From NCBI GenBank assembly GCA_002749535.1, contig MZZL01000379.1, positions 62,001-126,000 on the forward strand: a stretch of DNA of 64,000 bases, written 5' to 3'. The notes under the pieces are model-generated. The model worked only from the letters and a program-made list of their open reading frames with translations, searched no databases and was not told the DNA's origin. The position numbers and the translations under genes were made by a program. Numbering within the stretch: the stretch's first letter is position 1; each line of letters begins with the position of its first letter. Positions 8,860 to 44,813 of the stretch are shown in pieces. This DNA is from Apophysomyces variabilis. Taxonomy: Eukaryota > Mucoromycota > Mucoromycetes > Mucorales > Mucoraceae.

Positions 8860-10405
8860 TTATTGGTTCGATGTACCCTGAAGAAGCGTTTGTAATGATT
8901 GAGCTTCGTTTGAATGGCCTGTGCCCCCTTGTAGCGCGTTAAGCAGCGAATTTCTTCGGGAGCTCTCCTCGGCCGGTACTTGGGGCTGTGCTGCCAGAGA
9001 GTTCGTTGCATGATTCTTCAACATCTGTTCAACAAAGGACGCTCTGTGGGCAGGAACATGAGCAGGCGTGGGGTACTCAGAAGGAGGTTGCTGTGATGCA
9101 AATAACTGCTGCAGGATGTTATCCACGGAAGAAGGGGTTGGGTTCGCAGGCGTTGTTTGTACTACTGGTGTAGACTTGACTGGGTTGTTGATAACCCCAA
9201 GAAGGGATTTCAGGGCATCGGAAGGATGTTCTAACGAGGGGGGAACAGGCATTGATGAGGATGGCGATGCGGATGGCGATGCGGATGGCTCAGGCGCTGT
9301 TTCTCTTTCATGCTCTGGTTTGACATCTGGCTTTTGTTGCGGTTTGTCCACGGATCGACGTGAAACTTTCCGGCGATTGTTCACGAAAGACCTTAGCTTA
9401 CTATACATACATGTTCATGAATGTTGCTGTCAGTTTGGTTCAGAAAATCATTATAAACGTACTCCATAAATGGTGCGACCATGTAAAATCTGTTTGATCC
9501 CAACTTTGCATATCCATGGCTACCGTTACCAGTACGAGACTCGGTTTTGAACGTTGGCAGATCGTCCATATTAAACCATAAAATTTCCTAGCATCACGCG
9601 TTGGACATATTGGAGAACGATATACAGAACTACTTACACTGATCTCTTTGCGCGTTTGCGGGTTAAACTCTGTGTCTTCTGGAACACCAACTACCAAATA
9701 CAATCGAATACGCTGCTCTCGCACCGTGAATTCCACGTAATCGTTCTTCTTTAGTAGTGGGGTGATATCGTAACCGGTTTCTTCAAGCACCTTTAATCGG
9801 AACAGATGAGACGGTATACAACAGAATAGATCAAATCGCAAACCTCTCGAATGGCACAGCAATTGTATTCTTCATCTTGATTGATCTTTCCTTTGGGAAA
9901 ACCCCATCCTGAACGAGAGCTCCAACCCTTCACCAGTACGCATTTGTCCAGTGAATCGTTGATGAGGATGGCACCACAGACAGGGATTCGGAAGCGATAC
10001 TGCATAAAATCAGCATAGGCACGCTCGTGTTCATGAGCCCATTGCTGCAATAATGGACAATGCTTGAATAGTGTTGTTTTGGGTTAAGGATGTTCAATGC
10101 ATAAATCGACTATTTTCAGCTGTTTATATCAAAGGATATTTCTTGCGGAAAATGTCTTTAACTGGAAAGATGGCAGTTCTGGTTTCTGTTCTCGTATAAA
10201 GTCTTCGTAGAACCAGTGAGCTTGTTCGACTTGGAAGCAAATACGCTCAACTGATTTAAGTTCTACTTCAGGCACGTTGATGATAAAACGACTGAAACAG
10301 GCATGGTTGTGAATCGGCTCTTTATGTACATTTGGCTCTATACCTTGATAGATCATCTAGGATTTCTTCAAATGTGAATTGAGCCAGCACTGTTCTTGAC
10401 TGCAT
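8860..10405 (-). CDS. DCP2: mRNA-decapping enzyme subunit Dcp2 (Nudix hydrolase)
   Basis: Removes the m7G cap from mRNA before 5'-3' decay, in the cytoplasm and P-bodies. Model: complement(join(8860..9396,9459..9587,9638..9790,9844..10070,10140..10291,10344..10405)), 419 aa. Residues 8-95 are the N-terminal regulatory domain (FTFEEILDDL, SRFIINVPE, EQAHWFYEDFI). The Nudix box G-x5-E-x7-RE-x2-EE-x-G fits at 132-153 with all catalytic glutamates present. A box-B-like segment (RFYMVAPFMEYL) follows, then a Pro/Ser-rich tail with short leucine motifs (DALKSLLG, VDNILQQLF) of the kind that bind Edc3/Pdc1. Intron 2 is a U12-type AT-AC intron, listed separately. The gene is head to head with MRF1, ATGs 197 bp apart. 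Confidence 0.95.
10071..10139 (-). other. U12-type AT-AC intron in DCP2
   Basis: A 69-nt intron on the minus strand. Its first nine bases are ATATCCTTT, the exact minor-spliceosome 5' consensus; a perfect branch-site motif TCCTTAAC lies at 10090-10083, and the intron ends in AC 12-13 nt after the branch adenosine. No GT-AG choice joins the two exons. Removing this intron in phase 1 gives TFSARIFKHCPLL, which matches the conserved Dcp2 text (for example VFSAKLFAHCPLL in fission yeast). Confidence 0.9.
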
Positions 10406-10602: not shown

Positions 10603-12059
10603 ATGATATTTGTACCTGTTAGGCGCTTCCTTTGGCGCGCCGCAAGGTATTCAACAAGAGGTTAGACCTCAAAAAGAGTTACTCAGAGAAAGAAGTCCAC
10701 TCATCCCAACTTATCCCAAAACGATCGTATTTGACAGCATCTACTCCCTCTTTTTCCCGGATCACTCCTTCTCTTCAGCAGAAACTGGGTGAACTAGCCG
10801 CACGCCACGATGAACTGCTGAATCAGTTGAATAATAATCAACTTACCTCAAGCGATCTGGCGAATGCCTCGAAAGAACTAGCCAACCTATCTACATCGAA
10901 ATCACTCTTTGAAGATTGGCAAAAGAAAATGAGCGATTTTGAGCAACTGCGTGAATTACTCTCCAGTCAAGAGCAAGACGATGAAATGCTAGAATTAGCA
11001 AAGGAAGAGTCTTCTGAGCTGGAATCTAGAATATGTGAAATAGAATGCAATCTAATCACGGAACTTGCACCAAAAGATCCAGCTGACGATGCAAGTGCCA
11101 TATTGGAAATTCGTGCTGGTGCAGGGGGTGATGAAGCCGCCTTGTTTTCTGCTGATATGGCAAGAATGTATGAAAGGTTTGCCCAATTACAGCGCTGGAA
11201 ATGGGAGGTGTTAGCGTCTTCTGAAGATATGAACGGCAAGGGCTTAAAGGTACCCTATTAACATAACTCTCTTTTTAACCGATTTAAAATGAACATCACA
11301 GGATATTACAGTTAATATTAGTGGACGAGATGTATTTAAGTATTTGAAGTACGAATCAGGCGTCCACAGGTAACGTATTGTCATGGGAAATAGTTTATTT
11401 TTCCTTCAGCTAACTGTTGTATCAAGAGTCCAACGCGTGCCGGCCACAGAAGCACAGGGACGTATTCACACTTCTACTATTACTGTTGCCATATTACCAC
11501 AGCCTACAGAGGTCGACGTGCAGATTCGCGATTCTGATCTTCGAATCGACGTATATCGTGCCTCTGGTGCAGGAGGTCAGCATGTCAATACTACCGATAG
11601 TGCCGTCCGCATAACACATATACCAACTGGATTGGTTGTGGCAATGCAGGACGAACGATCTCAACATAAGGTAACAGTACGAAATGAGAACAGTCCATTC
11701 TTAACATAGCATACCATTAGAACAAAGCCAAAGCACTGAAAATCCTCCGTGCAAAAATCTTTGATATGGAGCGCGAAAAATCAGATATGGCTCGACGAGA
11801 TTCACGCAATAAGCAGATTGGTTCTGGTGACCGATCAGAAAAGATTCGAACGTACAATTTTCCCCAGGTAAAACGGGATGGCAAATTTTCAGCATAGTAG
11901 GATAGACTTGCTTATCTCCTTTACTAGAACCGAGTAACCGATCATCGTATCAATTTGACCTTGTACGAGCTGGAACCGATACTTTCTGGGGAATCACTTA
12001 TGGGTGTAATCGAGCCACTACGAGATCATTACTTCACTCAATCTTTAGAAAATCAATGA
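10603..12059 (+). CDS. MRF1: mitochondrial peptide chain release factor 1
   Basis: Class I release factor that reads UAA/UAG and frees the peptide on the mitochondrial ribosome. Model: join(10603..10660,10738..11249,11302..11369,11427..11670,11721..11867,11928..12059), 386 aa, phases exact. The first exon gives an Arg-rich, acid-free leader ([19 protein letters not shown]), a good mitochondrial targeting peptide; a 77-nt intron links it to the long ORF. The anticodon-like PAT tripeptide is at 218-220 ([14 protein letters not shown]) and the catalytic GGQ at 262-264 ([16 protein letters not shown]). The C-terminal domain is complete. Length fits the family. Confidence 0.94.
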
Positions 12060-12445
12060 AATGCCAAACTATTAGATTCATAAGGTCCATTATGGATAAA
12101 CAAGCTTTTGCTCAATATAGCAATCAATATTTCCAATAAATAATGTCGCAAAGCATCAAAGTCAATGACTCCTTACCGTTCCTTCTATGCTAGCAACGTG
12201 CCCTTTCTTATCTGGAAGTACCGGTTCCTCATAGTTTTTGACCAAGCTATCGCATGGAAAAGAGCAATAGACTGTAATCACGCTTTTGACGTACCGTGAA
12301 AATATCTTTATGGGCGCCCAATAAGAAAAGTGTCAAAGGATCATTTATTACATGGTAAACAGAGAATAAAGATATGCATAGCCAATCGCATACAAAGTAG
12401 GGGTGCAGATAAATCTATTTGGTGCATTCCAGAAGTCGATTGGAC

Positions 12446-41209: not shown

Positions 41210-44813
<3,604 letters not shown>

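Follow-up and report, generated by a model that had tools for sequence, protein, structure and literature searches.

The window, which is the whole 64-kb stretch of Apophysomyces variabilis DNA that was analysed, contains a gene for the decapping enzyme DCP2 on its minus strand, at about 9.4-10.4 kb. Adjoining it on the opposite strand, at about 10650-12060 (+), is a gene whose protein motif, read by eye, we take to resemble that of an organellar peptide chain release factor. The GC content of the window is 42.0%, and the available text of the published genome paper gives 41.65% for the genome (PMC5604411). The features of the DCP2 gene are listed below in the direction of transcription.

10344..10405, minus strand: DCP2 exon 1, defined by its reading frame, with a presumed start ATG
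10292..10343, minus strand: DCP2 intron 1, GT-AG, 52 nt
10140..10291, minus strand: DCP2 exon 2, ending in ...TFSAR and the first base of an Ile codon (phase 1), its last base being A (10140)
10071..10139, minus strand: DCP2 intron 2, predicted U12-type AT-AC, 69 nt
10131..10139, minus strand: 5' splice site of intron 2, ATATCCTTT
10129..10131, minus strand: in-frame TGA reached if intron 2 is retained (...SAR-NIL-stop)
10083..10090, minus strand: branch motif of intron 2, TCCTTAAC
10071..10072, minus strand: 3' splice site AC of intron 2, closing the 12 nt CCAAAACAACAC that lie 3' of the branch motif; CCAAAACAACAC holds no pyrimidine tract
9844..10070, minus strand: DCP2 exon 3, opening with TATTCAAG at 10070, which gives bases 2-3 of the Ile codon and then ...FKHCPLL
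9791..9843, minus strand: DCP2 intron 3, GT-AG, 53 nt
9638..9790, minus strand: DCP2 exon 4, with the Nudix domain, defined by reading frame and Pfam
9588..9637, minus strand: DCP2 intron 4, GT-AG, 50 nt
9400..9587, minus strand: beginning of DCP2 exon 5; the end at 9400 is arbitrary, and the gene model covers the 5' part of the gene

The spliced product contains the two domains of a DCP2 decapping enzyme, box A (PF05026, 3e-36) and a Nudix domain (PF00293, 1.5e-17), and matches chains of Schizosaccharomyces pombe Dcp2 at 5e-85 to 8e-85. At least one further intron and the C-terminal region probably lie 3' of 9400. The DCP2 protein of A. ossiformis (P0026) extends past the point that matches the end of the modelled exon 5.

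Introns of the U12 type with AT-AC termini have the 5' splice site consensus RTATCCTTT and the branch site consensus TCCTTRAC. The 5' consensus is given as RTATCCTT in the available text of a survey of such introns (PMC2846911). The first-pass annotation had placed a 69-nt intron of this type at 10071..10139, and these coordinates hold, with the intron on the minus strand. All three minor-spliceosome signals that it named can be found: the 5' splice site ATATCCTTT, the branch site TCCTTAAC near the 3' end, and a terminal AC 12 nt after the motif that restores the frame. The window holds a single exact ATATCCTTT...TCCTTAAC pair with a gap of 35-60, and 100 dinucleotide shuffles produced no such pair. 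Splicing also restores, as had been proposed, the conserved Dcp2 junction: around ...LKTFSARIFKHCPLLQQW... the product aligns without gaps to the S. pombe chains, within the box A match given above.

Open-frame solutions for introns of at least 30 nt were enumerated between anchors at about 10230 and 10000. The claim that no GT-AG solution exists holds over this span, where not one keeps the frame. The other frame-keeping solutions are 3 GC-AG, 9 AT-AC, 2 GT-AC, 3 GC-AC and 6 AT-AG. Each of the three GC-AG solutions removes conserved residues, and SARIFKHCPLL is kept by only one of the nine AT-AC solutions, 10139-10071. A loose scan of the window for U12 signals gave one more, weak candidate, a GT-AG intron at 41364-41478 (+), where 0.5 is expected by chance.

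Conservation of the intron position was read from the proteins of relatives, not from their DNA. The sample consists of 196 DCP2 proteins among the matches listed by two overlapping searches (120 each of 840 and 1744 found). Models are broken at the AT-AC junction in 17 of these 196: eight read into the intron, seven lose the exon end and restart at HCPLL, and two, both from Apophysomyces, start downstream. Other models of the same fungal groups are intact.

The residues at the junction indicate the type of intron. All eight read-throughs have [KR]-N-I-L or [KR]-Y-I-L there. The sequence N|ATATCCTT translates to N, H, D or Y before IL, whereas a GT intron would give S, R, G or C before IL. All eight therefore fit an AT intron, since NIL and YIL are translations of N|ATATCCTT. 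Which of the two residues is seen follows the split codon of the intact relatives: N goes with Ile (Mucorales, Basidiobolus, Syncephalis) and Y with Phe (Mortierella; Entrophospora, compared with Rhizophagus clarus). A single phase-1 AT intron that interrupts the same codon throughout would produce this pattern. Whether DCP2 of other Mucoromycota shares the position, a question raised by the first-pass annotation, is answered indirectly, from proteins, in favour of an AT intron at the same codon. Eight is a minimum, because gene finders can read only into introns without early stops. A search with the junction region of P0008 for further read-throughs returned five proteins, none of them new.

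By NCBI taxonomy, the eight read-throughs belong to Mucoromycota, Mortierellomycota, Glomeromycota, Zoopagomycota and Basidiobolomycota (Basidiobolus ranarum being placed by genus). For the other nine broken models, the five names looked up are Mucorales or Glomeromycota; for those from Rhizopus and Phycomyces and from the second Apophysomyces, the presumed placement goes by genus. The intron is probably old and, judging from these proteins, would predate the split of the five phyla, with its codon and AT termini kept by common descent. One AT-AC intron may in this way be traced through several early-diverging fungal phyla.

One automatic measure, which counts indels of at least five residues, finds 10 models affected at the AT-AC site; the corresponding numbers for the three GT-AG sites are 3, 1 and 1. 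The remaining 7 of the 17 (two late starts and five read-throughs) were added by eye or by pattern, at the AT-AC site only. The late starts, P0026 and P0065, begin too far downstream to include either the first GT-AG site or the AT-AC site. The deletion in P0072 covers these two sites and is counted among the 3, and P0019, a generally poor model, has indels at the AT-AC and two GT-AG positions. AT-AC introns thus appear to damage public models of a core RNA-decay enzyme, in 17 of the 196 among the matches listed, including both Apophysomyces entries, and annotation-based surveys may undercount fungal AT-AC introns.

The first-pass reading would have fallen had the genome lacked minor-spliceosome components, and this check did not overturn it. 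Genes for U11, U12, U6atac and the U11/U12-25K protein were found, together with a candidate for U4atac. The sequence searched comprises 38,696,054 bases in 126 contigs; according to the available text, the published assembly has 39,387,571 bases in 431 scaffolds (PMC5604411), and the difference of about 0.7 Mb presumably consists of short scaffolds.

With Rfam models, U11 (71.2 bits) and U6atac (63.1 bits) score above their cut-offs. U12, with 47 bits and E 6.2e-7, falls short of its cut-off (53). The U12 locus (L001:1501-1700 = C95:3559514-3559713) carries an insertion of 61 nt that the Rfam consensus lacks, which may be why it is missed at the curated cut-off; both the GUAAGGA that pairs with the branch site and the GCCUACUUUGC stem-loop are preserved. 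A second U6atac-like sequence, divergent, below cut-off at 28.7 bits and possibly a pseudogene, lies at L004:1501-1561 (C70:461505-461565).

U4atac gives no match to the genome at E <= 0.001 with the Rfam model. The best candidate, L042, scores 33.4 bits (E 0.0085; cut-off 53), a level to be read beside U4atac matches at E <= 10 in 11 of 14 control genomes, and a clan scan of its locus ranks the U4 model best, at 28.7 bits and below cut-off. Its first 20 nt form 14 consecutive pairs (stem II) with the genome's own U6atac at -25.6 kcal/mol; none of 2000 shuffles is as good (mean -8.7), and for the 5' end of canonical U4 the value is only -9.9 kcal/mol. Stem I, of 7 bp, is not significant alone, since 130 of 2000 shuffles do as well. 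Canonical U4 itself (100 bits) lies on another contig. Because of the 14-bp stem II, on which its identity rests, and the separate canonical U4, L042 is a well-supported candidate for the U4atac gene, the least secure of the four minor snRNAs. Another locus, L041, the sole match to a hand-made pattern of U6atac complementarity, was rejected as U4atac: no U4-like 5' stem-loop or Sm site is seen in its context.

Three minor-spliceosome protein families were searched: U11/U12-25K, CENATAC and PDCD7. The U11/U12-25K protein is encoded (Pfam Ubiquitin_4, 1.1e-24; PDB 8r7n chain B, 1.5e-17). CENATAC (PF14968) and PDCD7/U11-59K (PF16021) gave no match in the genome family search, which does not show their absence. 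CENATAC is required for AT-AN introns in human cells, according to the available text of PMC8280824. Away from the U11/U12-25K gene, a third, weak Ubiquitin_4 match (E 0.085) lies at L046 (C94:1579498-1579617).

The available text of the genome paper describes U4atac and U12 as 'not present' and reports as minor components 'U1' (sic) and U6atac (PMC5604411). For the same genome, U6atac is found in both analyses, whereas U12 and U4atac, called absent there, have candidates here. The published absence from the genome of this pathogen is contradicted, by two candidates that are both below Rfam cut-offs.

The small RNAs found can be paired with the DCP2 intron. The 5' splice site forms 6-bp duplexes with the U11 5' end and with U6atac of the genome, and the branch motif a 7-bp duplex with its U12; these short pairings are uncontrolled raw values. 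The signals, the frame, the minor snRNAs of the genome and the pattern in relatives lead us to hold with high confidence that DCP2 contains, in its box A region, a functional U12-type AT-AC intron formed by the 69-nt segment, spliced in phase 1, old, at the same codon in relatives and missed in some public models.

Two other ways of removing the segment would use the major spliceosome. In one, an 84-nt GC-AG intron (10146-10063) would be spliced out, giving ...TFS-HCPLL with the loss of five residues. This solution keeps the frame, its AG sits eight bases 3' of the AC, and seven public DCP2 models (P0014-P0016, P0019, P0022, P0072, P0080) also restart exactly at HCPLL, though with larger upstream deletions. 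The lost residues, ARIFK, nevertheless belong to a stretch that 168 of the 196 relatives among the matches listed show without interruption, a figure that is silent on the presence of an intron in those genes. Moreover, the U12 signals would be a coincidence that no shuffle reproduced, and intact models exist for the same species, as in Phycomyces blakesleeanus (P0003 against P0019) and Choanephora cucurbitarum (P0168 against P0072). An 84-nt GC-AG intron is for these reasons very hard to credit.

The AT-AC intron itself could also be of the U2 type, and such introns are documented (PMC6717393, available text). This one has a full U12 5' splice site and branch motif, and the U11, U6atac and U12 of the genome contain complementary stretches. 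To our knowledge, U2-type AT-AC introns are not expected to bear TCCTTAAC. There is next to no chance that the major spliceosome removes this intron.

Assembly of the minor spliceosome starts with pairing of U11 to the 5' splice site and of U12 to the branch site; the U4atac/U6atac/U5 particle then joins, and U6atac replaces U11. For the U12-type DCP2 intron, the U11/U12 di-snRNP would recognise ATATCCTTT and TCCTTAAC, U6atac would displace U11 at the 5' splice site, and exons 2 and 3 would be ligated in phase 1, yielding ...SAR-I-FKHCPLL. A transcript that keeps the intron can be translated only as far as ...SAR-NIL, where the splice site itself supplies a TGA. Because of this in-frame stop, full-length Dcp2 needs splicing.

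The link between minor splicing and mRNA decay that the first-pass annotation suggested is conceivable. A regulatory role, which is compatible with U12-type splicing, can be imagined. Limiting minor splicing would lead to retention, truncated Dcp2 and slower decapping. Such a switch could act through the TGA that follows NIL, and a switching role of minor introns has been put forward for human cells (PMC3728624, available text). However, the read-through models of eight relatives run on beyond NIL or YIL, so that a stop there is not conserved, bearing in mind that stop-free introns are those that gene finders can read through. For Rhizophagus, Larue and Roy report that minor splicing is not linked to proliferation (PMC10639083, available text). 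A switch of this kind is thus improbable. Bolder, and highly improbable, is the idea that the intron serves early-diverging fungi as a brake of great age, maintained by selection. The output of a small minor spliceosome with mostly AT-AC substrates would then set the capacity for decapping, and through it nonsense-mediated decay, and retained DCP2 transcripts would be partly protected by the shortage of the very enzyme that degrades them.

Minor introns are already known from fungi, and the DCP2 intron adds one to the class. The first-pass annotation was right that they had been reported from Rhizopus and Phycomyces, but its list was incomplete, as Rhizophagus and Basidiobolus have also been published (PMC10639083, available text). 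ESTs scored by two methods gave 8-9 AT-AC and 8-12 GT-AG introns in Phycomyces blakesleeanus, and 1 and 2-3 in Rhizopus oryzae (PMC2846911, available text). These belong to the same intron class, and come from the same broad fungal group, as the DCP2 intron. The main text of that paper, in the part available, lacks the word 'decapping'; its supplement of intron sequences could list the DCP2 intron.

For Rhizophagus irregularis 205 minor introns were counted among annotated introns, and for Basidiobolus meristosporus 249; Rhizophagus has all four minor snRNAs, and some of its intron positions are conserved in other species (PMC10639083, available text). Both listed DCP2 models of B. meristosporus (P0070, P0115) run into the intron, and for this reason annotation-based counts would miss it there. 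The words 'decapping' and 'Apophysomyces' are absent from the available main text of the same paper, its supplement apart. Among the matches listed in the open-licence literature, supplements apart, no earlier report of the DCP2 intron described here was found.

Other candidates in the genome were sought with an AT pattern (ATATCCTT...TCCTTAAC, gap 40-70) and a GT pattern (GTATCCTT...TCCTTRAC, gap 36-66). There are 23 strict motif pairs of the AT type and 13 of the GT type, whereas the reversed patterns give 1 and 0; restricting the branch site to TCCTTAAC leaves 23 and 7. The statement that AT-AC introns are rarer still among fungal minor introns thus fails in A. variabilis at strict consensus, where the AT-AC to GT-AG ratio is about 2:1, although the true ratio may differ because looser branch sites lie outside the count. 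In Phycomyces the two kinds are roughly even (PMC2846911, available text), and human minor introns are 22-26% AT-AC (PMC6717393, PMC10639083, available texts).

Out of the 36 matches, 31 were scanned for protein domains. Four whose ninth base is not T (L010, L021, L032, L035) were omitted after poor frames, L032 and L035 having short open frames nonetheless, and L040 was left unscanned. In 16 of the 31 candidates a Pfam domain that scores above its curated cut-off extends across the spliced junction; the other 15 have no such domain. Eleven of the 21 AT-AC candidates have such a domain (DCP2, Alg9-like mannosyltransferase, Npa1, Brr6-like, importin-beta N, MIOS, ChAPs, ion channel, FancD2, TatD and Gaa1), as do 5 of the 10 GT-AG candidates (ion channel, two PP2C, Sedlin and WAC). 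The uncounted L005 and L014 have domains beside the junction, or across it below cut-off; in L009 the Pfam match reaches only 5 residues beyond it.

The 16 domain-supported candidates are 69-103 nt long, eight being in phase 1, five in phase 0 and three in phase 2. Open frames are favoured in this set, since each candidate 3' splice site, 7 to 32 nt past the motif, was chosen for the best open frame. In L012, L013, L025, L034 and L037 at least 22 nt are needed between motif and 3' splice site, which is unusually far.

L018 and L030 (C78:972650-973396), one GT-AG and one AT-AC candidate, share a strand and have about 0.6 kb between them; each lies in an Ion_trans domain, and the two probably belong to one channel gene. 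L012, L023 and L025 have no Pfam match; at all three, an AT-AC candidate interrupts the same junction motif, W[TV]PP[DE]R-x-x-MI|S. Going by this motif, they are possibly paralogues that have retained one minor intron.
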